A stretch of DNA of 64,000 nucleotides, taken from positions 41,162 through 105,161 of the IMG/VR virus record IMGVR_UViG_3300044911_003339. One strand, given 5' to 3'. Within the stretch, counting starts at the first letter, position 1, and each line of letters starts with the position of its first letter. This document shows positions 4,300 to 62,576 of the stretch, one piece after another. A model generated the notes under the pieces. That model made no database searches and was not told the origin of the DNA. It saw only the letters and a list, made by a program, of their open reading frames with translations. The DNA comes from a virus. The position numbers and the translations under genes were made by a program.

Positions 4300-5060
4300 G
4301 CGTCCGCACCTTCCTCGACATGAGCTTCCAGATCGGACTGGAGAACAGTCTCGACGATTCGCTGTTCGAGCGCACGAACTCGCAGCTTCTCGACACGCTT
4401 GACCACGCAACCGGAGGTGTCGTGTCGCTCGCGGCGCTTCAGACGAACGTCACGCTGCCCTTCGGCGACGTGACCGAGGCGCGAATCCTCTACATCGAGG
4501 CCGAGGACGGCGACGTGCGCTTCACGCTCGGCGGCGGGCTCGCGACCTCGGGGCGTATCGACGCCGTGGGCGCGGCCTACCCGACGGGCTTCGTCGGCGC
4601 AGAGACGCTCGACTTCGAAGTGGACGCCACGGCGATCGCCGTGACCTTCACGTCGGGAGACCAGACGATCACGCAGGTCATCAACCGTATCAACGCGGCG
4701 TGCGCGCTCGCGGGATTCGCCACGCCGATCGCGAAGGTGAGCGCGGGGCAGCTTCGCCTCGAAAGCCCGACGACGGGCACGTCTTCGTCGATCGAGATCA
4801 TCGGAGGCACAGGCCGCGCGACGCTCGGCCTCCCCGCTCCCTCCACCATCAACTCAGGTGCGAACTCGACGCCCGGCACGAGCCCCGTGGAGCTTCGTCG
4901 TCCCGCGGACCCCGCGGGCGCGAGCGCCGCGGCAGGCGTGAAGGCGATCTTCTTCGGCACCGTGAAGACGAGCAGCATCGTCATGGAGAATCTCTCCGAC
5001 AACGTGACGAAGGTGCGCTGGGCGATCGCGGGAGACCTCACGACCGACGACGCGTGCTGA
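4296..5060 (+). CDS. Putative virion structural protein
   Basis: A 254-residue protein translationally coupled to the portal through an ATGA overlap. It has no recognised enzyme motif. It is rich in Thr, Ala, Gly and beta-branched residues. A central section (about residues 105-185, with ITQVINRINAAC and SIEIIGGTGRATLGL) resembles the small beta domains found in flagellar hook-associated and phage tail proteins. No signal peptide or membrane segment is visible. Position between portal and MuF genes suggests a head-vertex or neck component; the function is an inference from context. Confidence 0.7.
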   Translation: MSVRTFLDMSFQIGLENSLDDSLFERTNSQLLDTLDHATGGVVSLAALQTNVTLPFGDVTEARILYIEAEDGDVRFTLGGGLATSGRIDAVGAAYPTGFVGAETLDFEVDATAIAVTFTSGDQTITQVINRINAACALAGFATPIAKVSAGQLRLESPTTGTSSSIEIIGGTGRATLGLPAPSTINSGANSTPGTSPVELRRPADPAGASAAAGVKAIFFGTVKTSSIVMENLSDNVTKVRWAIAGDLTTDDAC

Positions 5061-5070
5061 CGGAGGTCCC

Positions 5071-9984: not shown

Positions 9985-10329
9985 ATGAAGAGGTTCTCCA
10001 TCGACCCCGCCACGCTGCCGACCACATGGCGGGTCGGGCGGCGTGTCGGCAATAGCGGGCTGGAGCACGCCTTCGATCTCCGCCGTCGGGATGACGGCGG
10101 AATCTCCATCTCGAACGTCGAGCACCCGCTCACGGAGACCGAGCGCACCATGCTGCTCTCGCACTTCGGCAAGGCGCGCGTCGTGACGATCGGAGGCGAG
10201 GCCGACAACGGCGCGCTCGTGACGACGATGCAGCGCCACGAGCCGGGGGAGATCGAGAACTTCGTGGAGGCGGTCTACTCGCTGCCCTCACCCTTCATGG
10301 TGATGCCGAACGCTCGGAGGGAGACATGA
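9985..10329 (+). CDS. Hypothetical protein
   Basis: A 114-residue protein, beginning MKRFSIDP, between two giant polyvalent genes. The ATG at 9985 lies 8 bases after the previous stop, with a weak GAGG upstream; longer versions of the frame would run deep into the upstream gene. The stop overlaps the next start (ATGA). It looks like a small alpha/beta protein, without cysteines, signal peptide or membrane segment. I do not recognise the family. Coupling to the helicase gene suggests that it may be an accessory or loading partner, but nothing in the sequence shows that. Confidence 0.65.
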   Translation: MKRFSIDPATLPTTWRVGRRVGNSGLEHAFDLRRRDDGGISISNVEHPLTETERTMLLSHFGKARVVTIGGEADNGALVTTMQRHEPGEIENFVEAVYSLPSPFMVMPNARRET

Positions 10330-13300: not shown

Positions 13301-16300
13301 CGGCTTCGTGATGGACGAGCGCGTCTCGTCCATGATGGACGAGCAGGCTGCCATCATCCGAGAGCGCGCGCTCCAGGTGACCGGAGAGGACTGGCCTCCC
13401 GCAGACCAGATCGTCGATGCGGACGGCAACGTGAATCCCAACGGAGTGCTGCGCGGCATGGTGACGGGCGCGATGGGCATGCAGCCCGGCGCGCATCGCA
13501 TCGAGGCGCTTCAGCGCGTCGCGATGAACAACGGTCGCCTCATCGCTGCGCACTTCATGGGCACGGGCAAGACCGCGTTCTCGATCGCAGCCGCGCAGAT
13601 GATGCGGAACCTCGAATCCCGCGAGCAGCCCGGCAAGCCGCACCCGAATCAGGTGAAGAAGAAGGTGCTCGCGCTCGTGCCGCTCAACACCGCGAACAAC
13701 TACGCCGACGAGGTGGAGGTGTTCACCGGAAGGCCCGCAACGATCATCGGCTCGGGCTCGCTCGCGGGCAGCGTGCGGATGTTCCGCATGCCGAAGGACC
13801 AGGGCCAGAAGAAGAACGAGACGCGCGAGGCGTTCATCGCGCGCTCGCTCGCCGCATGGAAGGCGGCGGTCAAGACCGACCCGACGCTGTGGAACCCGTG
13901 GGCAGACGATTCCCAGATGTGCGTCTGCCCCTACGAGTACTTCCGCGACAACGAGGAGTTGATGCGGGCCACGGAGATGTTCGACGGGCTCGTCGTGGAC
14001 GAGGCGCACAACATCGCACGTGAGAACGAACTCTCACGTGCGGTCGAGCGCTGGAATCCGAACATGAACATGTTCCTCATGCTCACCGGCACGCCCGTGA
14101 CGAACACGCTCGACGTGCTCCCGCGTATGGCGAGCCTCGTGAGCGCGGGCAAGGTGAACCTCGGCACGAAGCAGGAGTTCACGGAGCGCTACCTCGTCGG
14201 CTCGGCTGTCGCGAAGGGCGAGGGCGCGAAGAATCCTCCGAAGACGGACCTCAACCCGCAGCGTGCCGGCGAACTGGCGGCGATCATGCGTCCGCTCATG
14301 CACATCGCGACGACGCAGGACGTGAAGGGCAAGACGATGCCCGCGGTGCTGCTCGACGAGAACAAGCCCGCGCACATGATCGGTCAGCAGGCGCGCATGT
14401 ACCGACTCTCGATGGCGAAGTTCACGCCCGAGGAGAAGGCGGCGATCATCGAGAGCGGTGCGGTCGGCACCGACGAGTCGTACGCGCTCGATGACGAGGG
14501 TCGCCGCAAGATCGGTGTCGCTCGCTCGATCGCGAACTGCCTCGCCTACAAGGCACCCGACCAGCGTGAGAATCTCACGTACGAGTCGAAGAGCACCGAG
14601 GAGAAGAAGGGCAAGGTCATCGAGAAGACCGTCACCCGCGTCTTCTCGCTGCCCACGCACGCGATGATGACGACGAAGCGCCCCGAGGGCTGGGGCGGGA
14701 AGTGGCCGACGTTCTCGGAGGTCGAGAAGGGAATCGTCGAGCCGGGCTACTACAACGTGCTCTCGGAGTACTACGAGCGCCTCTTCGGCGTGACGTACGA
14801 CTCCGTGGAGGGCAAGCCCATCGCGAAGGAGATCCTGGACGGCGTGAAGCGCGGCGACTACGTGACGCCGAGCGGCGCGCCGTGGGGTACGGTCGTGAAT
14901 CCCGATTACGGCCCAGAGGGCATGATCTGTCGCGGCACGCTCGACCCGGTGACGGGCAAGATCGAGCCGCTGCGGAAGGAGATCGTCGAGAACGGGCAGA
15001 AGCGCGTCGTCGAGGTCAAGCCGGGCACGCGCTTCATCCGCGATCCGAACTCCAAGGCGGCGGGCCTCTTCTACCACGAGGATGACTGGAACTTCACCGG
15101 CCGCTTCATCGACTCGGGCGAGGGAGGCGGCGGCGAGGGTGGAGGCGAGGACGATCCGTCCGACCCGAAGCCCGCGTCTGCCGGCAAGCAGGCCCCGAAG
15201 GACCCCTCGCTCTCCATCCAGCGTTCGACGAAGCGCCGGAAGGAGCGAGAGATGTTCGACCTCGCGGTCACGGCGGGCAACGCGAAGAGCGACGAACTGG
15301 AGCAGTACATCCACAACGCGCTTCGCGACGACAACCTCGGGCCCGATCAGCAGTTCATCCTCTTCGGGAATCGCATCGGCTCTTCCTTCCGCACGATGGA
15401 GAGCAAGCTCCGCACGATGGGATTCCAGGACGTGAACGAAGCGCTCGGGCACCCCGAGTGGAGCACGGCCGAGGACAAGGCGATGATGCCTCGGAAGTTC
15501 TTCGTGACGTACGCGGGCAAGGGAGCAACGCTCGGCGACCGCGACATCAACTCGGAAATCTTCCGACAGAAGCTCGACCAGTTCGGCCACAAGACCGGGC
15601 AGTCGATGTTCGTCTTCCGCACGCTCAACGGCGGCACGAAGAAGCCACCCAAGGTCGGCGAGATGCGCGAGGGCTGGAGCCGTGGCCAGCGGAAGCGCAT
15701 CGCCGACGCTCTCGCGGAGCCCACGCGCAAGACGGCCGAGGGCAAGCCTGCGGGCCTGGAGGTGCCGATGCGCGTGACGAGCGTCGAGGTCGATGGTCGC
15801 ATCGAGCAGCGGTACCTCTACGAGTCGGACATGAAGCCGAAGGATCGCGCAGAGTTCCTCCGGCTGGAGAAGGAGCGCCGCGGCGCGGACAAGGCGCGCA
15901 AGCAGGCGATCGACGGCGAGATGCGCGCGCTCGCCGACCGCTACTGGAGCGACCGGATTCCTCTGTCCGATCACTACCAGTACGTGCTGAACAACACGCA
16001 GATCATGGTGGCGACCGACGCCGCGAACGTCGGCCTCAACTGGCCTGCTCCCAAGCTCGTCATGTACGACTCGCTCTTCTCGCCGATGGACGAGTGGCAG
16101 CGCATGACGCGTGCGGCCCGCATGCTCGACGCAGCGGTCACCGGACCCGCGAAGAAGTACGTCGAGAAGATCGACGCGAAGCTCTCCGAGATGGAGAAGC
16201 AGACCGGGCTGAAGGAGTACGGACCAGAATCTTCCCTTCAGGCGGTGCAGGACGCGATCGAGTCGCTCCCCGAGGACGAGCGCGCCGAGCTTCTGAACCT

Positions 16301-16961
16301 GGAGGGAGGAGGCCCCGATCAGATCGTCGAGGCCATCTTCAGCCGTCGCGCCATGGACAAGATCGCGAAGCTCCGCCCCGAGGTCGGCGCGCATCTCCGG
16401 CAGGCCGGCGCTGCGCCTGATCCCGATCGCCCCGAGATCCGCATCCGTCCATCGGCCATCCAGGAATCCGACGTGACGAACGAGATCATCCGCAAGCACC
16501 TCACGCCCTTCGAGCAGCGCGTGCTCCGAGGACGCATGTACCTCGTGGACGTGAAGCGGCTCACGACCTCGTGCGACGTGCCCGAGATGAAGTCGATTCG
16601 CATCGAAGACCCGATGACGGGCAAGAAGACCACGGTTCAGGTCCCGACCGGCAAGTGGTCGGTCGAGGCTCCGACGCAGGCCGAGCGAAGCCAACTCACG
16701 CAGGGCCGCATGAAGATGGTGCCCTACGAGAAGGCGATGAAGGCGTTCCAGAACGCGCAGCCGGTGAAGACCGACTACGACTTCCTCGTGACGCCTCGCG
16801 GGAGCGTGCGTAGCTTCTCGATCATGCCTGAGGAGATCGAGCGCGAGAAGGCGAGTCGCGCGAAGCGCGAGGTCGCGAAGCCGAAGCCCACGAAGACGAA
16901 GAAGTCGGAGAGCTACAGCCGATTCTTCATTCCAGCGCGAACCGCGCGCGGGGAGGCGTGA
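10326..16961 (+). CDS. Giant polyvalent protein: zincin metallopeptidase + SF2/SNF2-type helicase
   Basis: At 2211 residues this is the largest gene here. Residues 30-55 carry the LKREPYFVGGKLRWRYWY module. VVWHELGHHVHF near 256 is an HExxH zincin motif. A possible LysM-like stretch lies near 670-715. Residues about 1060-1960 form an SF2 helicase: HFMGTGKTAFSIAAA (motif I) near 1077, LVVDEAHN (motif II) near 1223, LTGTPVTN (motif III) near 1257, then IMVATDAANVGLNWP and EWQRMTRAARML (motifs V and VI) near 1893-1930. A Gly/Glu linker near 1597 and other inserts separate the lobes. By analogy with virion helicases such as P1 DarB it may protect or remodel incoming DNA. That role is an inference. 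Confidence 0.82.
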   Translation: MSRFVIPALRAALPDALAKSFQRGPLAQHKYLKREPYFVGGKLRWRYWYASDELRKQGMVEHDPAGEHEHHLLANIADIYEHFKSVIRSTAATPTTAIEGIFQAAVDDPKAQRVPQVAMSPAFQAQHVQPFIDAEAKGAPPEASPIVRVHDALEMVPDYLLKLVMGGTKNTKHPGYKGLGPYPGLSALVMNRQEDEGADYANTAGWAHPKTGELHLLGGGSGKHGSDSSYSFLDGGDPATAPTPTDFNDAKVHLEKVVWHELGHHVHFTLETEQPDVMDSWRDLSTGPGPKPTAYAHTAWWEDFAESFSGCFALPKVMAMRCPERYDWMRQHVLKSLPERSALLKMSDEELAWWNKKKTTPPGKLLMHLKSNAPARRFGAYYSDKDQFFTVGKGGRTVYLRFGPSEPDQEDGWTQVPSTIDPETGLPVYDAAYGPRFKVQGNLKEMYDERGNPLDDFQAFLYLGQDDPEVQKFVADTMEKYVATLPPNSPQPTEYDAVQWLAAKGGDEAKALETRLLSYKMYTSLGYKRESEKISAKEAHTTEKERKRVEKERAKGGTGYLDRHDWVPVEIPRSEFVQKSGTFKFDNVRPAEYQPWQAREWDPVTKTSRVKTVYDPAAGKVVPVRTATVYEQENPDGTTFRVTVAEGEPFSIGQTILAPVSVKLPDGRISQDWQPYKLSVEDGEMTVTNLAKKFRVDPEALLRQNHRYMRGQITDPMLAALLNPSGEVIRDQFDLMRLMKLAAEQPTPPTAWVSVRGKTGSIAHFKVSFDGSGPPRVEGRQWAAKLGKDPTEPIRLDQILGKDDELIGVETVRERKAKEVKIKPGGLVWVTVKNHLGDAKRVMARYIEKKSFEEKGKKKNAHVVQVLPGQGTGLPKDRVIVTRVNKSDESQIPGKPEIRRRFVEPMQKDVLLYADEVRVGSGDRDTSGVIKILPPKNGSVTKAQLAAIPGVRIIGLEKARNKKGGAVTEELPEGVELAISPRDLPAFREYLGGFVMDERVSSMMDEQAAIIRERALQVTGEDWPPADQIVDADGNVNPNGVLRGMVTGAMGMQPGAHRIEALQRVAMNNGRLIAAHFMGTGKTAFSIAAAQMMRNLESREQPGKPHPNQVKKKVLALVPLNTANNYADEVEVFTGRPATIIGSGSLAGSVRMFRMPKDQGQKKNETREAFIARSLAAWKAAVKTDPTLWNPWADDSQMCVCPYEYFRDNEELMRATEMFDGLVVDEAHNIARENELSRAVERWNPNMNMFLMLTGTPVTNTLDVLPRMASLVSAGKVNLGTKQEFTERYLVGSAVAKGEGAKNPPKTDLNPQRAGELAAIMRPLMHIATTQDVKGKTMPAVLLDENKPAHMIGQQARMYRLSMAKFTPEEKAAIIESGAVGTDESYALDDEGRRKIGVARSIANCLAYKAPDQRENLTYESKSTEEKKGKVIEKTVTRVFSLPTHAMMTTKRPEGWGGKWPTFSEVEKGIVEPGYYNVLSEYYERLFGVTYDSVEGKPIAKEILDGVKRGDYVTPSGAPWGTVVNPDYGPEGMICRGTLDPVTGKIEPLRKEIVENGQKRVVEVKPGTRFIRDPNSKAAGLFYHEDDWNFTGRFIDSGEGGGGEGGGEDDPSDPKPASAGKQAPKDPSLSIQRSTKRRKEREMFDLAVTAGNAKSDELEQYIHNALRDDNLGPDQQFILFGNRIGSSFRTMESKLRTMGFQDVNEALGHPEWSTAEDKAMMPRKFFVTYAGKGATLGDRDINSEIFRQKLDQFGHKTGQSMFVFRTLNGGTKKPPKVGEMREGWSRGQRKRIADALAEPTRKTAEGKPAGLEVPMRVTSVEVDGRIEQRYLYESDMKPKDRAEFLRLEKERRGADKARKQAIDGEMRALADRYWSDRIPLSDHYQYVLNNTQIMVATDAANVGLNWPAPKLVMYDSLFSPMDEWQRMTRAARMLDAAVTGPAKKYVEKIDAKLSEMEKQTGLKEYGPESSLQAVQDAIESLPEDERAELLNLEGGGPDQIVEAIFSRRAMDKIAKLRPEVGAHLRQAGAAPDPDRPEIRIRPSAIQESDVTNEIIRKHLTPFEQRVLRGRMYLVDVKRLTTSCDVPEMKSIRIEDPMTGKKTTVQVPTGKWSVEAPTQAERSQLTQGRMKMVPYEKAMKAFQNAQPVKTDYDFLVTPRGSVRSFSIMPEEIEREKASRAKREVAKPKPTKTKKSESYSRFFIPARTARGEA

Positions 16962-44786: not shown

Positions 44787-45142
44787 GCGACGGCCCCGTC
44801 AAGATTCCCGTCTCGTGGTTCGTGGCCGCCATCGGCCTCGGGCTGCTCGTGGTCGTGCTCTCGTTCTTCATCGGGCGAGGGTGCGAGCGTTCTCCACAGC
44901 CTGTGGATGAACTGGGGATCGATGCGGGGCCTGGAGAGGCCGAGATCGCGGCGAGGCTCGACGGGTCGCTTCAGGCGGCCGAGGTCGAGCTTCGTCGCAT
45001 CGAGGAGCAGCACGCAGCCGACATCGCTGCGTTCGAGGCGCTCCAGCGCGAGAAGTACGAGGAGATGCGCGCCGAGGGGCCCGAGGCCCTCGCGCACTGG
45101 TTCTCCGACTTCAATCGGAGGCTGCGAGACGGAGGTCCGTGA
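44783..45142 (+). CDS. i-spanin-like (Rz) protein
   Basis: A 119-residue protein starting at a GTG in a GTGA overlap. One N-terminal membrane helix (about residues 11-30, WFVAAIGLGLLVVVLSFFIG) is followed by a periplasmic helical region (AEVELRRIEEQHAADIAAFEALQ). This is the Rz build: anchored in the inner membrane and coiled to reach the outer-membrane partner. Its presence implies a Gram-negative host. It joins the next gene through TGATG. Confidence 0.65.
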   Translation: MSDGPVKIPVSWFVAAIGLGLLVVVLSFFIGRGCERSPQPVDELGIDAGPGEAEIAARLDGSLQAAEVELRRIEEQHAADIAAFEALQREKYEEMRAEGPEALAHWFSDFNRRLRDGGP

Positions 45143-45654
45143 TGATTCGTGCCTTGCAGGTTGCCGTCCTGTGTTGCGTGGCGGCGTTCACCCCCCTGTC
45201 GCATGCTCGGGCGCAGGACGGCAACCTGCAAGGCACGGGGCCCGCGCAGACGCCCCCAGGAAGCCCGGAGAGCACCGAGCCGCGTGGAGAGGTCGTCTTC
45301 CTCCCTGCGGGCCGGCCAGCCCCCTTCGCGGGCTTCCTCCTGGAAGGGCAGGATCTCGCGCGCTGGCGCTTCCACATCGAGACCCTGGAGTACCGGCTCG
45401 CGCGAGACGCCGAAGCCGCGGCTGCTCGGCTCGACGTGCTGCTCGGGATGGAGCGCGCCCGCACGAGCGCGGCCGAGGAGAGGCTCACGCTCCGCGACAC
45501 GCTCTGGCAGCAGCGCGTCGAGCAGCTTGCTTCAGAGCTTCGGGAGGCGCGGCGTGCCGTCGAGCGCGGGTGGTGGGAGAGCCCCGCTCTCTGGTTCGCG
45601 ATCGGCATGGTCGTCGCTGGCGGTGCTGTGATCGGAATCGCCGCCGCTCTCTGA
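45142..45654 (+). CDS. Secreted membrane-anchored protein, possible spanin partner
   Basis: A 170-residue protein; the ATG at 45142 is preferred over GTG at 45139 because GGAGG lies 7 bases upstream. It begins with a signal peptide (IRALQVAVLCCVAAFTPLSHARA, cleavage after ARA in outline) without a clear lipobox, then a Pro/Gly linker, a helical charged section (about residues 75-140) and a C-terminal membrane helix (LWFAIGMVVAGGAVIGIAAAL in outline). A two-anchor protein of this kind could bridge membranes during lysis. The last 123 bases overlap the antisense gene. Confidence 0.55.
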   Translation: MIRALQVAVLCCVAAFTPLSHARAQDGNLQGTGPAQTPPGSPESTEPRGEVVFLPAGRPAPFAGFLLEGQDLARWRFHIETLEYRLARDAEAAAARLDVLLGMERARTSAAEERLTLRDTLWQQRVEQLASELREARRAVERGWWESPALWFAIGMVVAGGAVIGIAAAL

Positions 45655-46593
45655 GCGTGCGCGGATGTTCGCCAGCTTGACGGCCTCGCCGAACGCGGTG
45701 AAGGCCGCTCGCTCTTCCTCGGTCAGCGGATCCGCCATGGGGTCAACGTTGATCAGAGAGAGCGCGTGAACGACGCTCGCGTAGGGAGTTGCGAACGGCG
45801 GGGGCATCGGCGGAGGACTCTTCATCACGGTCTTGAACATCCCCGGTGCCCCAGGTACCGGCTCCAGTTCGCGATCGTCGGGAAGCCGGAGCTTCCCCGC
45901 GTACTGCCGTACGTACGGACCGACCGACTTGGCGGCGATGGCCTGAGTCAAGAGTCGCGCTCGGTAATCGCTGTCCAACTCTCCTGCGTAGCGAAGCATG
46001 CCAAGCTCGGTGCCGATCTCATCCAGCAGCCCGGCAGCGTTCTCGGCGAGCAGGCGGCGCAGATCCTCTTCAGCTTGATCGGGTTCGAATCCCGCAGGCA
46101 CGGCCTCGCCGCGTCGCTTCCGCATGAAGGCTGCGAACGCGGTAGCGCTCATGGAGGCCGAGTGCGCGCCTTCCTTCTTGCTGCTGTGAGGTCCCAGCAA
46201 GAAGCTGCGCGCTCTGGTGCGCACATGCGTAATCGCATTGGCGCGCGAGACGTGCCAATCCAGACCGCGCTCACCCTCCACGAGACCGGCGAGCAGCTTG
46301 CCGCCGCCCTCCCACGAGAACGCCGCGGTGTACGAGCGAGAGCGACCGAGGGTCAGCACGAGGAAGGCGAGGTCTTCCTCAGGGTCGCCGTCGAGGAGTT
46401 TCACGGCGTTGAACCCGCCGATTCCTCTGAGCGTGAGAGAATCCAAGATCGTGACTTCTTCTCCGAACTCGGTCGCAATCTTGTGGAGGTGCTCCGCGCG
46501 CGTCCAGATCGTGATCTCTTCGCTGTAAGAGATTACCCGCTGCCGGACGTAGTTGAGAACGATCTCCAGGGTCTCTCTGTAGCTCTTGCCCAT
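45532..46593 (-). CDS. Hypothetical protein; only minus-strand gene
   Basis: A 353-residue protein read from 46593 leftward. On the minus strand AAGGAGAG stands 3-4 bases before its ATG, and composition is protein-like and not a mirror of a + gene for most of its length. It begins MGKSYRETLEIVLNYV and is rich in Leu, Ala, Glu and Arg; a mixed alpha/beta N-terminal half precedes a helical section (about residues 150-240) and a Pro/Ser-rich disordered tail. The tail runs 123 bases antisense to the preceding gene. GC bias is weaker than in neighbours. No family recognised; an independently acquired (moron-like) gene is likely. Confidence 0.7.
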   Translation of the reverse strand: MGKSYRETLEIVLNYVRQRVISYSEEITIWTRAEHLHKIATEFGEEVTILDSLTLRGIGGFNAVKLLDGDPEEDLAFLVLTLGRSRSYTAAFSWEGGGKLLAGLVEGERGLDWHVSRANAITHVRTRARSFLLGPHSSKKEGAHSASMSATAFAAFMRKRRGEAVPAGFEPDQAEEDLRRLLAENAAGLLDEIGTELGMLRYAGELDSDYRARLLTQAIAAKSVGPYVRQYAGKLRLPDDRELEPVPGAPGMFKTVMKSPPPMPPPFATPYASVVHALSLINVDPMADPLTEEERAAFTAFGEAVKLANIRARSESGGDSDHSTASDDHADREPESGALPPPALDGTPRLPKL

Positions 46594-46727
46594 GCTCTCT
46601 CCTTACCCGATTACGACCCGCTCCTCTCCGGCCGGACTCTGGTGCTGGGATCGCGCGGAGCGCACAATGGGTCGGGCGAAATCCGAAGCGAAGCGCGGAC
46701 ACACGCCCCCCATTAGCCGCTCCGCGG

Positions 46728-46765
46728 CTTCAATCTGATTCGACGTTAGGAGAATCAGATTGAAG
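46728..46765. repeat. Perfect 14-bp inverted repeat
   Basis: CTTCAATCTGATTC (46728-46741) and GAATCAGATTGAAG (46752-46765) are perfect complements around a 10-base loop. It is AT-richer than its surroundings and lies 135 bases upstream of the minus-strand start, at the edge of the hairpin-rich region. It could be an operator or the first stem of a structured RNA. No T-run follows on either strand. Confidence 0.7.
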
Positions 46766-47413
46766 GCTTCCCGGATCTCCGGGCGGAGGGGGTCAGACGA
46801 GTTGAACGCAGGTAGCTCTGAAGCGTGAGGCCCGCGGCGAGGTGTCTACGCTCGCCCGGCTCGTGTTCAGGATTCCCGGCTATACGAGTCAGCGAAGGGG
46901 TGTTGCTCCACACTGGGGTGGGGGGCGTTCGTTGCTCGGTCCTTCTCAGGACTTCGCATAGCGGCGATGCCGCCGCGCTCACGCGCGTCGAGGTGCCTTC
47001 CTCGATCCGGGACGCAGGCTCCGGTATGGCGGGGGTCCCCCAGTGCGCCGTCCACCACATCGACCCTGTACTGCTCCGCCGCGATTACCGCGGCAGTAGG
47101 GGAGGTCGGTCGCGACGCGACCTCACACGAAGAGGCCACCTCTGCGGGATGGAAGTGCCAGGATGCACGCTGTTGCAAGGTCCCGCCTCTCGTCGTCGAT
47201 GCGGCTGCTAGGGCTCGGCCCGATCTCAGCCTCGGCACGCATACGGCGTGCGCGTCACGAGGCACCGATGCCTCGCTCGCGGTGCCCTGCCAGGGACTAC
47301 CCGCGAGCGAAGACCCTGGCCGACTTGCAGCCGAAGCGCAAGTCCTGCATCCTCTGAGGGTCCCGATCTCATGGTTCCTCCCACAGCACCCGCTGAACCC
47401 GGAGGCACCAACA

Positions 47414-47447
47414 CGAAGCCCGGTGTGCCAGCACTGGGCTTCGGCGT
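47414..47447 (+). terminator. Terminator-like hairpin ending the structured region
   Basis: CGAAGCCCGGTG (47414-47425) pairs with CACTGGGCTTCG (47432-47443) over 12 bp with one G-U pair and a 6-base loop; GCGTTTC follows. The U-run is short, so termination strength is uncertain. Confidence 0.45.
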
Positions 47448-47462
47448 TTCTGGGCTACGCGT

Positions 47463-47475
47463 AATCGTGTAAGAC
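47463..47475 (+). repeat. 13-base motif, copy 1
   Basis: AATCGTGTAAGAC occurs here, between the structured region and the tRNA-like fold, and again at 58926-58938 upstream of the AAA+ ATPase gene. It could be part of a phage promoter; no clear -35 box is seen. Confidence 0.4.
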
Positions 47476-47481
47476 GGGCTT

Positions 47482-47576
47482 GCTCCCGAGCGTGCGAGTC
47501 CCGTAGACCGGCAACGGGCACAGGTCACGGCAGTCCGGCTCCACCACTGGTTCAAGTCCAGCGTGCGCTCGGGAGC
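47482..47576 (+). ncRNA. tRNA-like structure upstream of the helicase gene
   Basis: A 14-bp closing helix (47482-47495 with 47563-47576, two G-U pairs) encloses a T-arm-like hairpin CTGG-TTCAAGT-CCAG (47547-47561) and a D-arm-like hairpin CCCG/CGGG (47500-47518) with GG in the loop. I cannot find a 5-bp anticodon stem with a 7-base loop, so this is not a normal tRNA; it may be a degenerate tRNA or a tRNA-like RNA end. The closing helix would hide GGGAG at 47571-47575, the only SD-like sequence near the ATG at 47588. Confidence 0.35.
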
Positions 47577-47587
47577 GCTACCCACAC

Positions 47588-49000
47588 ATGCGCGTCTTCG
47601 TCGGCAACTCCTGGGCGGAACTCATGGGCGCGAGCCCGAGCTTCCTCGACTCGTGCACGAGGCACCTCGCGGTCTCCCTCGGGGACGATCCAGGGCCGGG
47701 CGCGAAGGTCGGTCACCGCTTCGGCGCGCTCTTCTGGGCGACGCACCAGGGGCAGCGCACGCTCTGGGGCTCGCTGCTCCACGAGAGGCGTCGCGTGGCC
47801 TCGGGGCTCGTGCCGTGGGTCGAGGCCCTCGCGCGGCACTACGGCGAGCCGATCGAGATCGTCGAGTGCCGCCGCCGCCCCGAGTGCGAACTGCCGATGT
47901 GGTCGATCAGCGGCGTCTCGTGGAGGCCGTACCAGGACGCGGTGCAGAAGCAGATTCTTCTGCATGACCGCGGGGTCGTCGCTGCCCCGCCTCGTTCCGG
48001 CAAGACGCTCATGGCCGCGCGTGCGTTCGACGCGATCGCGCAGCCGTGCCTCTGGCTCGTGCCCAGCCTCGCGATCGGCCGGCAGACCTACACCGTGCTG
48101 AAGAAGCACTTCGGGGCCGACTTCGTGGCGCGTCTCGACGGCGAGGCGAGCCGCGACGAGCGCGACATCGAGAAGAGGCTCGTCGTCTCGACGATCCAGT
48201 CGGCGCTCTCGCAGAGCCCCGAGTGGTTCAAGACGCGCAAGATGCTCGTCATCGACGAGTTCCATCACGCAGCGGCGGAATCCTATCATCGCCTCAACGC
48301 GCTCTGCGAGCACGTCTACTATCGACTGTGCTGGACGGGCACGCACTTCCGCACGGGAGAGGACGCGCTCGCGATGCACGCGATCTGCTCGACCGTGCTG
48401 CACAAGATCGAGTTCGATGACCTCGTGGCCGAGGGCTTCCTCGCGCCCGCGCGCGTGCTCTTCATGCAGCCGCGAGCGCCCGCTCCGATCTTCACCGACA
48501 ACCGCTGGATGCAGGTCTACCAGACCGGAATCGTCGAGTGGGAGCCGCGCAACGCGATGATCGCGTTCACCGCGCGCACGCTCGACGCGAGCGGCGTCCC
48601 GACGATCGTGCTCACGCGCCGCCGCGCGCACGCAGAAGCTCTCGCGAAGATGATCCCCGGCGCGCAGGTCGTGCTCGGCGGAGACGGCGCGCTCCTCTCG
48701 CGAGCGATCGCCGACTTCAACGACGGCGTGACGAACGTCCTGGTCGGCACGCAGGTGATCGGCGAGGGTGTGGACGTTCCTCGCGCCGCAGCGCTCATCT
48801 ACGCGGCAGGCGGCAACGAAGGGGTGCAGCAGATGCAGAGCTACTACCGACCGCTCACGGCGTTCCCTGGCAAGAAGATCGGCCTCATCTACGACTTCCA
48901 AGATTCCCAGCACGGCATGCTCAACGCGCACGCGCGCTCTCGGCAGCGCATCACGGCAGAGATCCTCGGCGAGAAGGCTCTCGTGCGGGTGGAGCGATGA
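47588..49000 (+). CDS. SF2 DNA helicase (UvsW/DEAD-box type)
   Basis: A 470-residue helicase. The ATG at 47588 follows the tRNA-like fold; no exposed SD is visible. An N-terminal domain of about 110 residues precedes the motor: WRPYQDAVQKQIL (Q-like), VVAAPPRSGKTLMAA (motif I, near 130), MLVIDEFHHAA (motif II, DEFH, near 219), LCWTGTH (motif III), then TNVLVGTQVIGEGVDVP (motif V) and QMQSYYRPLTA (motif VI, divergent). Size and layout fit UvsW-like phage helicases used in recombination-dependent replication. The stop overlaps the next start. Confidence 0.8.
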   Translation: MRVFVGNSWAELMGASPSFLDSCTRHLAVSLGDDPGPGAKVGHRFGALFWATHQGQRTLWGSLLHERRRVASGLVPWVEALARHYGEPIEIVECRRRPECELPMWSISGVSWRPYQDAVQKQILLHDRGVVAAPPRSGKTLMAARAFDAIAQPCLWLVPSLAIGRQTYTVLKKHFGADFVARLDGEASRDERDIEKRLVVSTIQSALSQSPEWFKTRKMLVIDEFHHAAAESYHRLNALCEHVYYRLCWTGTHFRTGEDALAMHAICSTVLHKIEFDDLVAEGFLAPARVLFMQPRAPAPIFTDNRWMQVYQTGIVEWEPRNAMIAFTARTLDASGVPTIVLTRRRAHAEALAKMIPGAQVVLGGDGALLSRAIADFNDGVTNVLVGTQVIGEGVDVPRAAALIYAAGGNEGVQQMQSYYRPLTAFPGKKIGLIYDFQDSQHGMLNAHARSRQRITAEILGEKALVRVER

Positions 49001-49668
49001 GCGCCGACCTGCTCGCGCGCTACGACGCTCTCTGCCAGGAGCACGGCGTCTACTCGGGCAAGCGCAGCCTCTCGCGATTCCGTGAGCCGATGGAGCACTA
49101 CGCAGCGTGGTGCGCGGAGAGGCAGATCGACCCGAAGCTCTTCATGCGATTCCGGTTCGAGCAGGCGCTCGCGCGGCACAAGGCCGCACCGAGCATCAAG
49201 ACGCTCGTGAGCGACGACTCCGCGCAGGAGTACCTCCGCACGGAGGCAGGCGCGTCCCTCGCGGTGTTCGAGCAGACCGTGAAGCCCGTCTACGATCTCG
49301 TGGGGCCGGGCAACGGACGAATCTACTCGCTCGTGCGAGACGCGATGTGCGCGCCCGAGCCCTACGTCGAGCGCTTCCGGCACCAGCAGGTCTCGACTGG
49401 CAGGGCGTGGGCGTGCCGCTCCGAGCGCCTCAGGTTCGGAATCGGGTATGACCCTCGGAGCAGCGTGTGTCCTCGCTGCCCCGAGGCTGCTCTCTGCGCG
49501 CAGCAGACGAGCGCGGAGATCGGCTTCGACATCACAGCGCTACGCCGAGGAGACTTCGACTTGCTCCCTGAGATTCCCAAGAAGGTCGCACGCCACAGCT
49601 CGGAGCTTCACGCTCTCGTGAAGCAGGGCTCCGCTGCTCGCCGCCGCGCAGCACGGAGGCTCGCATGA
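48997..49668 (+). CDS. Hypothetical Cys-containing replication-module protein
   Basis: A 223-residue protein coupled by ATGA to the helicase and by ATGA to the DnaB-like gene. It is helical in the first 110 residues. A Cys cluster (VCPRCPEAALC near residues 156-166, with another Cys about 20 residues earlier) could bind zinc or an iron-sulfur cluster. The C-terminus is Arg/Ala-rich. Its place between two helicases suggests a loader or adaptor, but I recognise no loader motif. Confidence 0.65.
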   Translation: MSADLLARYDALCQEHGVYSGKRSLSRFREPMEHYAAWCAERQIDPKLFMRFRFEQALARHKAAPSIKTLVSDDSAQEYLRTEAGASLAVFEQTVKPVYDLVGPGNGRIYSLVRDAMCAPEPYVERFRHQQVSTGRAWACRSERLRFGIGYDPRSSVCPRCPEAALCAQQTSAEIGFDITALRRGDFDLLPEIPKKVARHSSELHALVKQGSAARRRAARRLA

Positions 49669-51008
49669 CCTCGCTGTCGGAGTTCGGAATCGACTTCCAG
49701 CGCGCCATCGTGCGGCTCGCGCAGGTCGATGACGCGTTCGCCTACCGCGCAGTGAAGCACGTCGAGCCCGGCTTCTTCTCGATCGAGCCTCTCGGCTGGT
49801 TGTGGAAGGGAATCCGCGCGCACGTTGAGGCGTACCGCAAGCCTCCATCGGACCTCGTGCTCAACGAGTGGCTCCGCACGCTGCCCGGCGACAAGCAGCC
49901 GGTCTACGCGCCCGAGGTGTACGCGGTCCGCACGCTCGGCGAGGTGAAAGACTCGGAGTACGTGAAGCACAAGCTCCGCGACTTCCTTCGTCGGAATCTG
50001 TTCGCGACCGCGCATCGAGAGAGCGCGCTCCTCTTCAACGAGAACAAGTTCGACGAGAGCTACGACGTGATGGCGAAGGCGCACGACGCCATCGCGACGC
50101 TGGATTTCGAGATCGTCGATCGCCAGTGGTTCTTCGACGAGGTGAGCGAGCGCCAGCACTCGCGCGCTCTCGCAGCGATGTCGTTCGAGCAGAACTTCAC
50201 GACGGGCGTGACGATGCTCGACAGGATCTCCGAAGGTGGCGTGAAGCTCGGCGAGGTCTGGTCGATTCTGGGCTACGCGAAGCGCGGCAAGACCACGTGG
50301 TTGATCAACCAGGCGTTCGGAGCGACGCGCGTGCATCGCGCTCCCACGCTCGTAATCAACATGGAGGGCAAGGGCTCTCAGTGGGCCGACAAGCTCGACG
50401 CGTGCTTCTCACGCGAGTTGTACTCCAACGTGAAGCGCGGCCAGATCGATCCCGTGCTCTGGCGCGAGATGCACGCGGAGTACCTCGGGCTTCGTCGTCT
50501 GCTCGTAATCCGCACACGCAACGAGTGGGACACGAACATCCTCGACATCCAGGCGGAGATCGACGAACTGCGCGCGCAGAACTTCAAGCCGCGCATGCTG
50601 ATCGTGGACTACATGGATCTCGGCCGCTCGCGTGACCGCGTGGATTCCGAGACCGCGCACCAGATCGCGTTCGGTCGCGACCTGAAGCGGCTCGTCGTGA
50701 ACGAGGAGATGGCGTGCTGGACCGCGTGGCAGGCGCAGCGCCCGAAGGCCGACGCGAACGTGCGCGAGCACATCATCACGTCCGGCATGGTGGCCGACGC
50801 CTACGCGAAGGTGCGCATCGTGGACGGCTTCGGATCGATCAACGCGACCGATGAGGAATGGAAGCGCGGCCACGCGCGCCTCTACTGGGAGAACTACCGC
50901 GACGCTGCGGTCAACGAGACCTTCTGGCTCCAGAACGACCTCGCGCGCATGCGAATGGCGGTCGCCTCTGGTGCAGGCGTAGACCCGAGCACGATGGGGC
51001 ATCCATGA
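49665..51008 (+). CDS. Replicative DNA helicase, DnaB-like
   Basis: A 447-residue protein with the DnaB layout: a helical N-terminal domain (about residues 1-150) that contacts primase, a linker, and a RecA-type motor. Walker A is GYAKRGKTTWLINQ (about residues 204-217) and Walker B is RMLIVDYMDLG near 308-318; the arginine-finger region lies near ITSGMVADAYAKVRI. Such hexamers unwind the fork 5' to 3'. The canonical loop GMPTPTG-type segment is not clear. Downstream small gene and primase form one replication operon. Confidence 0.8.
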   Translation: MTSLSEFGIDFQRAIVRLAQVDDAFAYRAVKHVEPGFFSIEPLGWLWKGIRAHVEAYRKPPSDLVLNEWLRTLPGDKQPVYAPEVYAVRTLGEVKDSEYVKHKLRDFLRRNLFATAHRESALLFNENKFDESYDVMAKAHDAIATLDFEIVDRQWFFDEVSERQHSRALAAMSFEQNFTTGVTMLDRISEGGVKLGEVWSILGYAKRGKTTWLINQAFGATRVHRAPTLVINMEGKGSQWADKLDACFSRELYSNVKRGQIDPVLWREMHAEYLGLRRLLVIRTRNEWDTNILDIQAEIDELRAQNFKPRMLIVDYMDLGRSRDRVDSETAHQIAFGRDLKRLVVNEEMACWTAWQAQRPKADANVREHIITSGMVADAYAKVRIVDGFGSINATDEEWKRGHARLYWENYRDAAVNETFWLQNDLARMRMAVASGAGVDPSTMGHP

Positions 51009-51454
51009 GACCGCTGATCTTGGAAGACGGGCAGCAGGATCGCTTCGCAGAACACGTGAAGCGCGTCATGAGCGCGCTCTGGGTTGACACGACCGATTAC
51101 GAAATCGACGCGCACCTTCGGCAGACGTGCGCGCAGTGGCTCGACGGCACGACCTGCGACATCGTGATCGCGCGCGAGTCCCTGGACAACGGAGATGTCC
51201 GGCTGGACGTGGACTTCCGCTGGAGGGTCGGCACGCCCCTTTCCGGTGCGAGTCTCACCGGGGAAGGGCCCATCGCGGGCGTCTCCTTCGCATTCGATCG
51301 TGAAGGTCCCGTCATCAAGTTCCGATTCTTGCGCAAGGGCTGGGAGTCCCGCAGCTTCGCCCCCTCCACCTCCTCGCTGCCGCTCGACCACACCAAGCTC
51401 TCGAATCGCGACTTCGCCAAGCTCATGCGCGAGCGCAGGAGCGGCGGTCGATGA
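51005..51454 (+). CDS. Hypothetical replication-module protein
   Basis: A 149-residue protein coupled at both ends by ATGA overlaps between DnaB-like helicase and primase. The middle is beta-rich (TCDIVIARESLDNGDVRLDV, then GPIAGVSFAFDREG). No known motif. Tight coupling suggests that it works with the helicase or primase. Confidence 0.65.
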   Translation: MRPLILEDGQQDRFAEHVKRVMSALWVDTTDYEIDAHLRQTCAQWLDGTTCDIVIARESLDNGDVRLDVDFRWRVGTPLSGASLTGEGPIAGVSFAFDREGPVIKFRFLRKGWESRSFAPSTSSLPLDHTKLSNRDFAKLMRERRSGGR

Positions 51455-52509
51455 GCAACGTGCGCAGGGCGCTCGCGCAGTTCGACGCGCACGCGTTCGT
51501 GCGCAAGCATGGAGGCCGGAAGGAATCCAGTTCGGCGCTCTCGCAGGAGTACCTGCTCAACTGCCCCGCGTGCGGCTCGTCGCGTCTGCGCTGGAACGCA
51601 GCGAAGAAGCAGGGCGCGTGGACGTGCTGGGGCTGCCATCGCTCCGGCGACACGCTCTCGCTCGTGAGGCTGCTCGAACGCACGACCGACATGGGCGCGA
51701 TCGACTTCGTGATGCAGGGCTACGTCGGAGGAGACCAGCCGACGAACCTCGAACCGCTCGGAATCGTCGCGCCTCGCGCGCCCCAGCGCGCCACCGTGAA
51801 GCACCTGCCCGCGATCTCGTGGCCTCACGGTGTGGACCTGCTCGCGCCCGTGCCTGCTCACGCACGAGCGTTCGATTACCTGCGAGGTCGAAAGCACTTC
51901 GGCGTGGACCCCGCGCTGCTCGCGCCGCATCGCGTCGGCTTCGGTCGCTCGGGCCGCCTCGACGGCTACCTCGTGTTCCCGTGCTGGATGGACAACGGGC
52001 TCGCCTACTGGCAGGGCCGCGCGACGTGGGACCCTCCCGCGGGCACCGACGAAGAGGTGCGCGCGTGGAAGGAGAGCACGGGCTACCGCAAGACGCTGAA
52101 CCCCGTCGCGGTGCCCGGAGCGGCTACGGCGAGCGACGTGATCTTCGGCTTCGATCACGCGCGCACGGCCGAGCACGTCGTCGTGTGCGAAGGTCCCTTC
52201 GATGCCGCGCAGATCGGAATCCCTTCGACGGCGGTCGCGGGTGTCGCGCTGCTCGGGAAGGCGTGGAGCGATCAGAAGCTCGCGCGCCTCGCACGCCTCC
52301 CGGCACGACGCGTGACCGTCTACCTCGACCGAGGTCGCGACGAGTGGGAATCCGCGTGCCGGCTCGCCGCCGCGCTCTCTCCCTACGTGGAGACCTACCT
52401 CGCGGTCCCTCCCGAGGGGTGCGATGCCGGATCCCTGACCCCCCAGCACAACGCGGTCGTGCTCGCGCACGCCACCCGGTACGCGGGGCAGGCCCTCCAG
52501 GGCGTCTGA
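51451..52509 (+). CDS. DNA primase, DnaG-like (zinc ribbon + TOPRIM)
   Basis: A 352-residue protein. The N-terminal zinc-binding domain has CPAC near residues 39-42 and CWGCHRSGD near 58-66, as in CHC2-type primases. A core (LDGYLVFPCWMDNGLAYWQGR) precedes the TOPRIM domain: VVVCEGPFDAAQIG near 244-257 supplies the catalytic Glu and VTVYLDRGRDE near 288-298 the acidic pair. It lacks the long C-terminal helicase-binding domain of cellular DnaG. It should make primers for the adjacent DnaB-like helicase. Last gene of the replication operon. Confidence 0.8.
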   Translation: MSNVRRALAQFDAHAFVRKHGGRKESSSALSQEYLLNCPACGSSRLRWNAAKKQGAWTCWGCHRSGDTLSLVRLLERTTDMGAIDFVMQGYVGGDQPTNLEPLGIVAPRAPQRATVKHLPAISWPHGVDLLAPVPAHARAFDYLRGRKHFGVDPALLAPHRVGFGRSGRLDGYLVFPCWMDNGLAYWQGRATWDPPAGTDEEVRAWKESTGYRKTLNPVAVPGAATASDVIFGFDHARTAEHVVVCEGPFDAAQIGIPSTAVAGVALLGKAWSDQKLARLARLPARRVTVYLDRGRDEWESACRLAAALSPYVETYLAVPPEGCDAGSLTPQHNAVVLAHATRYAGQALQGV

Positions 52510-58963: not shown

Positions 58964-59932
58964 ATGAAGCAGAGAAAGCCCCGCACCGTCGCTTCGGTCG
59001 CAGACACCGCCGAAGCGGCTGCCGCCGCGCCGACGACCATCAAGATCGCGGGCCACGATTTCGTCGTGGCCGAGCCCTCCCCCGAGCACGCCTTCCGCGT
59101 GCCGCCCACGCGCCCGTACCGCTTCAACGACGTGCTCGTGAAAGACCTCGCCGTCGGCATCGAGGAGGCCATGAACATCTTCCTCACGGGCCCGACGGGC
59201 TGCGGCAAGACCTCGGTCATCGTCGCGCTCGCCGCGCTCCTCCGGCGTCCCCTGATCCGCTTCAACCTGGACGGCGAGACGCGCGTCACGCATCTCCGCG
59301 GGCAGCAGGTCCCCGCCGCGAAGGACGGCGTGCTCACGCTCGCCTTCAGCCCCGGTGCGCTCGCGGTCGCGATGCGCGAGGGCTACTGGGTCGTCTTCGA
59401 CGAGTTCGACATGGGAGCGCCGAGCGTGCTCGCGGTTCTCCAGCCCGTGCTGGAGGAGGACCGACGCACGCTCTTCGTGCCCGAGACCGGAGAGACGGTC
59501 ACCGCCCACGAGGGATTCCGCGTGTTCGCCACGGGCAACACGGTCGGCTACCGCGCATCGGCGCGCGCTCGCCACGCGGGCACGAATCCTCTCAACGCAG
59601 CCGTGCTCGACCGCTTCGGTCTGGTGATCGCCTGCGACTACCCGGACCGCGCCGAGGAGATCGAGCGCGTCGCCTGCAACGTCCCCGACTGCCCGGCCGA
59701 GTTCATCGACGGCGTGTGCCGCGTCGCCGAGGAGCTTCGGAAGGACGACAAGTTCCGCGCCGACTTCTCGACGCGTCGCCTCGTCCAGTGGGCGCGCCTG
59801 ATCCCGCGCTTCGACTTCGACGTGCTGCGCGCGAGCGAGCTTGCGGTCGTGCGCAAGCTCGAATCTTCCACCGACGCCAAGGTGGCCCGCGAGGTCATCC
59901 GCCGCGTCTTCGGCTACGAGGAGAATCGCTGA
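58964..59932 (+). CDS. MoxR/CobS-like AAA+ ATPase
   Basis: A 322-residue AAA+ ATPase with SD AAGTAGG and spacer AATC. Walker A TGPTGCGKTSVIVAL is near residues 77-91, Walker B YWVVFDEFDMG near 140-150, sensor 1 RVFATGNTVG near 185-194, and an arginine-bearing helix follows. The NLDGETRVTHLRG stretch is typical of the CobS/MoxR group. These ATPases act with VWA partners to remodel or insert metal into target proteins. A CobT-like VWA gene lies two genes downstream, so this is a phage MoxR-VWA module. No CobN is seen; cobalt chelation is therefore unlikely. Confidence 0.8.
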   Translation: MKQRKPRTVASVADTAEAAAAAPTTIKIAGHDFVVAEPSPEHAFRVPPTRPYRFNDVLVKDLAVGIEEAMNIFLTGPTGCGKTSVIVALAALLRRPLIRFNLDGETRVTHLRGQQVPAAKDGVLTLAFSPGALAVAMREGYWVVFDEFDMGAPSVLAVLQPVLEEDRRTLFVPETGETVTAHEGFRVFATGNTVGYRASARARHAGTNPLNAAVLDRFGLVIACDYPDRAEEIERVACNVPDCPAEFIDGVCRVAEELRKDDKFRADFSTRRLVQWARLIPRFDFDVLRASELAVVRKLESSTDAKVAREVIRRVFGYEENR

Positions 59933-60756
59933 TGGCAGACATCTACTTCGGCAAACGCGCAAAGCCCGGCGTCTCGCCGCTCACCAGCATCTACTGGATG
60001 CGAGACCACACGCTCTTCCATCTCTTCGCGGGCGATTGGTGGCCCGTCTTCAGCGACGCCGCTCTGAACGGAGGCGGGACGGTGCCGAGCATCGGCGACG
60101 TGACCGCCGCGCTCGCGACGGGATCGCACTCCTCGCTCTCCGGCGAGGTGTGGAACAAGACGCACGACTTCTCCTCCGCGGTGAAGGCGGTGACGACGCC
60201 GATGGCGCTCGTGAAGCCCGACTCGCTTCGGTCTATCAGGACCCCCACGACCGACACGCGCTGGCGCGTGGCGCACATGACCTCGTTCCGCATGGGCAGC
60301 CTGGAGTGGGTTCAGGCCGAGGTCGCCACGGTCGTGCACGGCCACACCGTCTTCACCACCCCCGGCAGTCTGTCGGACGCGGCTTCGATGGCCTTCGCTG
60401 GACCGACCGCTGAGGCCGCAGCGAAGAAGTGGATTGCGACATCGCTGTCCAGCGGGCGCAACGGCTGGTGGTTCTACGAGGGTCAGTCGATTCCGATGTT
60501 CGGATCGTTCCACGAGCGTCACCGTTTCGCGTGGGTCGATGACCTGTACGTGAAGGCGCTCGCCGAAGCCGAGTCACTGGACGCCGATGCCAAGCGCATC
60601 GCCGAGGAGCGCGAGCGCGCTCGCATCGCGGCTGAGGAGAAGGCCGCCGCGGAACGCAAGAGGCTCCTGGAAGGAGCGACCACTGACCTCTCGCGAGAAG
60701 ATTTCGCGAAGGTCGTTCAGGCGCGCATCCGCGCGCGGAAAGGAAGCACGCTGTGA
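59932..60756 (+). CDS. Hypothetical partner between MoxR-like and VWA genes
   Basis: A 274-residue protein whose ATG overlaps the previous stop (TGATG) and whose end overlaps the VWA start. A Trp/Phe-rich N-terminal domain (ITSIYWMRDHTLFHLFAGD in outline: IYWMRDHTLFHLF) is followed by a helical section, and residues about 205-247 form a charged coiled coil (DAKRIAEERERARIAAEEK). Tight coupling on both sides suggests that it is the substrate, adaptor or regulator of the ATPase-VWA pair. Family not recognised. Confidence 0.65.
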   Translation: MADIYFGKRAKPGVSPLTSIYWMRDHTLFHLFAGDWWPVFSDAALNGGGTVPSIGDVTAALATGSHSSLSGEVWNKTHDFSSAVKAVTTPMALVKPDSLRSIRTPTTDTRWRVAHMTSFRMGSLEWVQAEVATVVHGHTVFTTPGSLSDAASMAFAGPTAEAAAKKWIATSLSSGRNGWWFYEGQSIPMFGSFHERHRFAWVDDLYVKALAEAESLDADAKRIAEERERARIAAEEKAAAERKRLLEGATTDLSREDFAKVVQARIRARKGSTL

Positions 60757-62576
60757 GCGTCGAACACGAGATGGAGCGCATCGGCAAGATCATCGCAGCC
60801 GACAACGGAATCGATGTCGTCTGCCGCGGCGTCGATGCGTACTGCACAGAGGACCGCAAGGTCGTGATTCCGAGCATCGAGACCTACGCGTGGCTCGGGG
60901 CCGACGCGGAGCGCATGCTCCACGGGCTCCTCGACCACGAGACGGGTCACGCGCTCGACACGGACTTCGCGTGGGTCGCGAAATCCTCCGAGGAGTCACC
61001 CGCGTTCAAGGTGCTCATGAACGCGCTGGAGGACGGCTACATCGAGGCGCGCCAGGGCATGCGCTACCGCGGCAGCGCGCAGAATCTCGCTCGCAAGAAC
61101 GAGTGGTTCTGGGAGCGCGGTGCCTCCGAAAGACAGACGACGCAGAAGGTGCTCGCGAAGGCCGATCGCTGGAGCGCGTTCACGCTCGCGCTGACCTGCG
61201 TCGTCCGGCCGTACGGGGGCCGCAAGGTCTCCGACATCGAGCCGATCAGGCCCGACATCGCTGCGATGCTTCGCGAGTGCGAGAGCGACTGGAGCGAGAT
61301 CGTTCCTCTCGCCGATCAACCCCGCGCGTCCGGCGAGGTCTTCAAGATCGCGCAGCGCATCTACGCTCGATTCCTTTCGGGCTCCGACCCGGAGTCGAAG
61401 AAGGACGAGTCGAGCATCGGCGGCCTCGCCCCCGGAGCCGGAACCCCGGACGAGATCAAACTCGACCGATGGACACCTCCGCCGCAGGGCGAGTTCGCGC
61501 TGACGCCCGAGGCAGCGATCAGCGCGCGCATCCATCAGGTGTTCGATCGCAACATCGCCACGCAGCCCTACACGAACTTCGACCACAGCTTCGATCTGGA
61601 GCGCGACTTCTCGACCGAGGATCTGCGCTCCGCGTCCGCCGCGTTCGAGGAGATGGAGCACGAGGTCCGTCTCGCGACGGACGCGCTCGTGCTGGCGTTC
61701 GAGGCTGCGGTGCGCGCGCGAAGCTCGACGCGCCTCGTCTCGGGTGCCGACGAGGGTCTGATCGACTCGTCGCTGCTCCCCTCCTACGCGATCGGTGCCG
61801 AGCGCGTGGACAGCATCTTCCAGGAGTTGACGACGGACGGCGATGACCGAGCGGTCGCCGTCTCGATCCTCATCGACTGCTCCGGCAGCATGCGAGGACC
61901 GAAGTCCAAGCTCGCCGCGCAGGCCGGGCTCGCGATGTCGCGCGCCTTGTCTGTCGTCGGAATCGCGCACGAGGTCACCGGATTCACGACGGTGGACTCG
62001 ACCATCGGCTCTCACCCGTGGGTCGATTCGCTCAACCGCTCCGCCGTGGAGCGCAACTTCCGGGAGATGCGCGCCGCTCTACGCGAAGCGCAGAAGCAAG
62101 GGACCGACGTGGGGCGCTTCGCGCGCGAGGTCTACCGCGGCAGCGAGGACGACCTCGAAATGCTGGAGGTCCCGATTCACGCGACCTTCAAATCCTTCGC
62201 GAGCGACGACGCACGTGGACTCACACGCGTCGAGGGCATCGCGGAGAACCTGGACGGCGAGGCGGTGATCTGGGCCGCGCGTCGTCTCGCCGCTCGGCAC
62301 GAGCAGCGCCGCATCCTGTTCGTGCTCTCCGACGGATTCCCGGCTGGCTCGCGTGACAACGCGCAGGGCCAGCGGTACTTGCGCGAAGTGGAGAAGCGCG
62401 TGCGGGATGCCGGCATCGAGGTCTACGGCTTCGGCATCATGTCCACCGCGGTGCAGCACTTCTACCCGACCCACTGGGTCATCACGGATCTCAACGACCT
62501 CGTGCGCGAGGCGCTCACCTCGCTGGCCGAGATCCTCACTCGTAATCGTACGGAGCGTGCGTGCGTCGTGCTGTGA
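60753..62576 (+). CDS. CobT-like VWA protein with HExxH motif
   Basis: A 607-residue protein starting at a GTG. HGLLDHETGHALDTDF near residues 56-71 has HExxH followed by NALEDGYIEAR, the arrangement of VWA-linked predicted metallopeptidases (CobT-like group). A variable middle is helical. The VWA domain begins near 366 with VSILIDCSGSMRG, supplying the MIDAS DxSxS; ILFVLSDGFPAGS near 516 is the later VWA strand. Partner of the MoxR-like ATPase two genes upstream. Peptidase activity is possible but unproven. The stop overlaps the next GTG. Confidence 0.75.
   Translation: MSVEHEMERIGKIIAADNGIDVVCRGVDAYCTEDRKVVIPSIETYAWLGADAERMLHGLLDHETGHALDTDFAWVAKSSEESPAFKVLMNALEDGYIEARQGMRYRGSAQNLARKNEWFWERGASERQTTQKVLAKADRWSAFTLALTCVVRPYGGRKVSDIEPIRPDIAAMLRECESDWSEIVPLADQPRASGEVFKIAQRIYARFLSGSDPESKKDESSIGGLAPGAGTPDEIKLDRWTPPPQGEFALTPEAAISARIHQVFDRNIATQPYTNFDHSFDLERDFSTEDLRSASAAFEEMEHEVRLATDALVLAFEAAVRARSSTRLVSGADEGLIDSSLLPSYAIGAERVDSIFQELTTDGDDRAVAVSILIDCSGSMRGPKSKLAAQAGLAMSRALSVVGIAHEVTGFTTVDSTIGSHPWVDSLNRSAVERNFREMRAALREAQKQGTDVGRFAREVYRGSEDDLEMLEVPIHATFKSFASDDARGLTRVEGIAENLDGEAVIWAARRLAARHEQRRILFVLSDGFPAGSRDNAQGQRYLREVEKRVRDAGIEVYGFGIMSTAVQHFYPTHWVITDLNDLVREALTSLAEILTRNRTERACVVL

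Follow-up and report, generated by a model that had tools for sequence, protein, structure and literature searches.

A conserved, hairpin-dense noncoding element at the replication locus of a phage: a probable new large structured RNA, or folded DNA

What does a kilobase of DNA without a recognizable gene do directly upstream of the replication genes of a phage? The question arises in a 64,000-nucleotide stretch (the window) that runs from base 41162 to base 105161 of an IMG/VR virus record of 105 kb, where a gap at 46594-47587 is bounded by a minus-strand ORF and by the first gene of a helicase-DnaB-primase series. The element discussed here is the part of the gap that is common to a related phage, L002.

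45532-46593, minus strand: ORF, function unknown, missing in L002
46594-47480, plus strand: noncoding, hairpin-dense element, the part common to L002 (no shared frame; fold z -6.0; colinear hairpins)
47588-49000, plus strand: SF2 DNA helicase, directly downstream of the gap (phrog_16, E 3e-48)
49665-51008, plus strand: DnaB-like replicative helicase (phrog_19, E 2e-41)
51451-52509, plus strand: DNA primase (phrog_47, E 7e-23)

Besides DnaB and primase, the proteins searched in the window and the rest of the record include a DNA polymerase and a UvsX-like recombinase but no replication initiator. Elsewhere in the window lie a CobS/MoxR-type ATPase-like gene (58964-59932; PHROG “porphyrin biosynthesis”, E 7e-51), in a region also conserved in the relatives L015 and L016, paired with a CobT-like gene with a VWA domain (60753-62576; E 6e-23); the structural gene block includes a 2211-aa protein (10326-16961) with a helicase-like middle (phrog_62, residues 1025-1365).

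The initial annotation took the gap to be noncoding, and this holds. No ORF in 46594-47587 carries the GC3 signal that is so pronounced in the flanking genes, and tblastx against the homologous gap of L002 finds no reading frame in common: matches are fragments no longer than about 40 aa (about 25 for the best one), fall on either strand and are frequently interrupted by stops, against 275 aa at 7e-167 for the adjacent helicase. A protein gene in the gap is ruled out by this comparison. L002, an IMG/VR contig, is syntenic with the window, its neighbouring proteins are 69-74% identical and its gap has the same length; the hairpins colinear with those of the window lie within 5035-6000 there. 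The element does not need the minus-strand ORF, since L002 lacks it.

If not protein, could the conserved feature be structure? The gap contains 14 strict hairpins (at least five Watson-Crick pairs), so the dense run of stems described earlier stands as a count; its density is less striking, since all homologous regions together have 844 stem pairs where shuffles have 748, modestly above chance. Comparison with L002 is more telling. Six strict hairpins are colinear between the two phages (2.2 ± 1.3 expected from shifted registers), a number that just 1 of 309 register shifts attains. Both bases differ between the phages in 23 stem pairs, compared with 7 and 5 in the helicase and DnaB coding controls of the same phage pair, which lie at the null. 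Compensatory changes in a related phage, which the initial annotation had proposed as a check, are therefore present, in a comparison of two sequences. The structured part has the following features:

46728-46765, plus strand: 14-bp perfect hairpin; L002 has a different hairpin of 9-11 bp at the same place
46868-47090, no strand assigned: structurally conserved core with hairpins 46939-46952, 46974-46987, 46988-47005 and 47007-47024 (two-sequence alifold)
46878-46892, plus strand: GGCTATACGAGTCAG, the longest core block identical in L002 (sequence comparison)
47102-47143, no strand assigned: hairpins 47102-47124 and 47131-47143, with stems that covary with L002
47414-47443, plus strand: 13-bp hairpin with a GCCA loop and no T-run; counterpart at L002 5942-5978

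Against column shuffles of the two-sequence alignment, alifold z is -4.6 (plus) and -3.6 (minus) for the core and -3.4 (plus) and -4.0 (minus) for 46925-47256, and ranges from +4.2 to -1.1 in control tiles of the helicase gene. The remaining gap tiles score near zero, an outcome due in part to failure of the sequence alignment in them. In the RNAalifold structure of the core, which was derived from the same alignment, 16 pairs differ at both positions and pairing is 100%. Folding energy points the same way for one strand: z against dinucleotide shuffles is -6.0 for the plus strand of the gap and -2.8 for the minus strand, and the plus strand lies 50.6 kcal/mol below its own shuffles, beyond all 24 control strands (best, 30.7), which makes it the best folder among 26 one-kilobase strands tested in the window; the minus-strand excess is inside the control range. 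The comparison with shuffled controls suggested earlier thus came out in favor of structure. Short tiles of the gap are just mildly unusual, so folding energy by itself is weak evidence, and the homology evidence for structure is the stronger. Outside the gap, a near-perfect inverted repeat of about 26 bp (CGTGCCTTGCAGGTTGCCGTCCTGTG ... CGCAGGACGGCAACCTGCAAGGCACG) at 45148-45235, inside the start of ORF 45139-45654, gives a structural signal stronger than anything in 46594-47587; this hairpin is kept with changes in L002 (tile alifold z -7.6 plus, -5.8 minus) and is not in the relative L024.

How far the element extends among phages bears on what it may be called. In the viral_contigs collection, L002 has the sole true occurrence of GGCTATACGAGTCAG, matches to a shortened pattern being chance; distant blastn against cultured phages matches no part of the element; genome_contigs holds no relatives of the DnaB or the helicase; and a covariance model of the core (R1), run on the relatives, finds just the two sequences from which it was built. 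No Rfam family, GOLLD and ROOL included, matches the element in the window or L002 at the gathering threshold or at E 10, and Rfam finds no match for it in the other relatives. The statement that the stems fit no nameable family is therefore confirmed, whereas the suggested resemblance to GOLLD or ROOL does not extend to membership in either. Because the element is noncoding, more structured than shuffles, marked by compensatory changes and without an Rfam match, it can fairly be read as a new structured element; the further proposal of a new class is best scaled back to a candidate class, because only two sequences carry the core.

The right-hand end of the gap is of a different kind.

47481-47578, plus strand: tRNA-like element with an acceptor-like helix, a D-arm and a T-arm, no anticodon stem; absent from L002

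Its end helix has 15-16 bp, its T-arm reads CTGG-TTCAAGT-CCAG and its D-arm CCCGT-AGACCGGCA-ACGGG, with a loop of the form AG..GG.A; inspection of 47481-47578 finds no anticodon stem. ARAGORN calls no tRNA in the window or the rest of the record, and the best Rfam hit of this segment is tRNA-Sec at 16.4 bits (cut-off 47; E 3.9), which together rule out a functional tRNA. Of the tRNA-like fold noted initially, the two arms and the end helix stand. The most fitting view of it is a decayed tRNA or a tRNA mimic that was added to this phage and lies outside the conserved element, and the proximity to a true tRNA island falls away. So does the terminator-like hairpin at the end: the terminator scan of the gap is empty, and an intrinsic terminator at 47414-47443 is ruled out, the hairpin there having no T-run. 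A promoter scan of the window gap likewise finds none. At the 5′ edge of the element in L002, 5056-5084 is a rightward sigma70-like promoter (CTGACA-17-GATAAT, 10/12), where 0.0 ± 0.2 such sites are expected and very few occur elsewhere in either phage.

The position of the element becomes informative when the same slot is followed through more distant relatives, a context absent from the initial annotation. Searches with DnaB yielded L015, L016 (= L017), L022, L023, L024 and the AT-rich L025 and L026; their DnaB proteins are 38-52% identical, and all keep the helicase-DnaB-primase order. The content of the slot varies between lineages. It is largely noncoding in L015, L016 and L023 too, although in L015 a ParB-like gene and a second ORF, unknown, lie at 5995-7541 inside a noncoding stretch that is continuous in L016. 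In L022 (7409-7884) and L024 (6886-7658) it is filled by HTH ORFs that weakly match DnaD-like loaders and replication initiation proteins (PHROG E 2e-6) and O-like initiators (PHROG E 3e-4), respectively, near which lie 15-bp direct repeats (GACCCAGATCA... in L022, ACTCAAAAATGAGTG in L024) in few copies, two to three. On the left, L024 closely resembles the window (tail fibre 63%, next gene 80%), and it nevertheless carries the initiator cassette. With initiator ORFs and repeats filling it in these two relatives, the slot has the look of a replication-initiation locus, occupied either by a cassette of initiator plus repeats or, in its place, by the noncoding element. The window gap itself contains only one 10-base pair of direct repeats, short of the clustered repeats beside an initiator gene that mark an iteron origin, and GC skew across the locus is flat, with no origin-type shift. 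The two ORFs with their repeats are, in their own right, likely replication origins of uncultivated phages. In L025 (6341-6425) and L026 (6376-6460) the slot holds a real tRNA-Leu (TAA) gene, at the place where the window phage has its tRNA-like fold.

Is anything in the noncoding slots shared beyond the closest pair? A short motif is:

46666-46714, plus strand: motif hairpin, AATGGGTCGGGCG .. inner hairpin .. ACACA .. CGCCCCCCATT; same layout at L002 5095-5150
46699-46711, plus strand: ACACACGCCCCCC, a 13-base word also present in L002 and L023
46917-46928, plus strand: GGTGGGGGGCGT, a second potential pairing partner for the CGCCCCCC strand; L002 retains 12 pairs

By inspection, a comparable motif hairpin is present in L015 and L016, which also contain the first eight bases of ACACACGCCCCCC, and ACACACGC is common, on the plus strand, to all five noncoding slots (window and L002, L015 and L016, and L023: three lineages); the motif is absent at this locus from L022 and L024. 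With at most one mismatch, ACACACGCCCCCC occurs once each in the window, L002 and L023 records, solely here, and among 1000 L023 shuffles none attains even 12 bases against the 13-base match, a statistic that is partly after the fact. Homology past the window and L002 rests on position and motif, because R1 does not recognize the other lineages. In the window as in L002, one good partner for the CGCCCCCC strand lies upstream of it and another downstream, its duplex with GGTGGGGGGCGT being predicted at -24.4 kcal/mol versus -16.2 for the upstream partner. A switch would therefore be allowed, and a strand exchange at CGCCCCCC is possible.

The strand signals conflict. The L002 promoter, the fold z of the window and, by inspection, the motif hairpin of L015 and L016, where G-C/G-U and G-U/A-U exchanges (L015 5525-5560) are standard only on plus, favor the plus strand. 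The minus strand is favored by core tetraloops that are GNRA on that strand in both phages (GAGA; GTGA in the window and GCAA in L002), by the fold z of L002 (minus -8.5 vs plus -6.4) and by leftward intrinsic terminators. These terminators, two at L016 7732-7869 and one at L015 7854-7889 (the right-hand one is conserved), point left and so away from the start of the helicase gene; immediately upstream of them there is no leftward gene. Also on the minus side, L015 and L016 have more A-C than G-U columns, and the overall tally of G-U to A-C, 33 to 44, gives no clear excess of either. We lean toward plus as the functional strand. That the RNA would instead be made leftwards, as a long leader or antisense RNA, for example, is highly improbable despite the minus-strand hints: in the window the plus strand folds far better than the minus, the L002 promoter points right and L002 has no leftward gene.

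We posit, with a probability of roughly 40%, that the element is a conserved, structured cis-element of a replication-initiation locus that most likely acts as a rightward RNA of about 0.9 kb; the comparisons show its lack of coding, a shape kept through compensatory changes, its position, the shared motif and the different filling of the slot in relatives, whereas its RNA nature, strand, cis action and origin role are what we infer. It would be transcribed rightwards, fold while being made and lead into the helicase-DnaB-primase operon, acting in cis either (i) as an origin-linked transcript, a primer or R-loop former, or (ii) as a structured leader, and it would thereby be linked to origin firing or leader control. 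Such an RNA would do the job performed by an initiator protein and repeats in related phages. Counting against this reading are a core found in two sequences only, the conflicting strand signals, the lack of a promoter in the window, the flat skew, the few repeat copies in L022 and L024 and the weak initiator matches there. Its boldest form, a class of protein-free replication initiator RNAs whose folded transcript, equipped with a G6/C6 switch by strand exchange around ACACACGCCCCCC, starts replication and is swapped during evolution with initiator-protein and iteron cassettes, is unlikely.

An origin that acts as DNA, its inverted repeats binding proteins or extruding hairpins while transcription is irrelevant, is somewhat unlikely. 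It would explain the lack of strand bias as well as an RNA does, both strands folding about equally in the alignments and G-U not exceeding A-C, and it would suit the initiator genes and repeats of L022 and L024; the window region has no iterons of note and no skew shift, and the rightward promoter at the element edge in L002 and the plus-strand fold excess in the window speak for a transcript. A large trans-acting phage RNA, a self-assembling ornate RNA of the GOLLD or ROOL kind unrelated to replication, is unlikely. Phages encode GOLLD and ROOL, frequently close to tRNA islands, and GOLLD is often over 800 nt (PMC12286853), a description that fits the window element only loosely. Size (about 0.9 kb), phage setting, dense helices, the adjacent tRNA-like fold and the real tRNA-Leu at the slot in the distant L025 and L026 are in keeping with it, but the case comes down to size and the tRNA-like element, set against Rfam searches that match at no threshold, a record in which ARAGORN calls no tRNA, a position tied to replication genes and a core found in two phages only. 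Decay or chance, with gene and tRNA remnants lying functionless in a GC-rich gap, is the least probable explanation: it would account for the missing anticodon stem, the variable slot and the modest stem count, and is contradicted by a relative that keeps hairpins and blocks while bases change, and by the unique shared 13-mer.

Our preferred reading, a rightward cis-acting RNA, has the merit that position suggests a testable function, the element occupying a slot that relatives use for an initiator and repeats; if confirmed, it would add a large noncoding RNA linked to the start of phage replication. To our knowledge, very few large structured phage RNAs are known, and their functions are open. 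GOLLD, a cage-forming RNA expressed during lysis, resembles the window element in being large, phage-encoded and rich in helices, and a tRNA-like element lies near the latter, which differs in its replication-module setting, its lack of an Rfam match at E 10 and the absence of tRNA genes from the record. ROOL is likewise a large phage RNA of complex predicted folding and unknown function; the window element is longer, matches neither Rfam nor the conserved ROOL sequence and has no true tRNA island. The O-like or DnaD-like initiator and iteron origins of L022 and L024 share its slot directly upstream of helicase-DnaB-primase, where the window has hairpin-rich noncoding DNA in place of an initiator gene and iterons. 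The origins primed by RNA, ColE1 RNA II and the T4 R-loop origins, have no demonstrated sequence similarity to the window element; with its G6 and C6 tracts and its neighbouring SF2 helicase gene, the window element would resemble them as a structured transcript crossing an origin.
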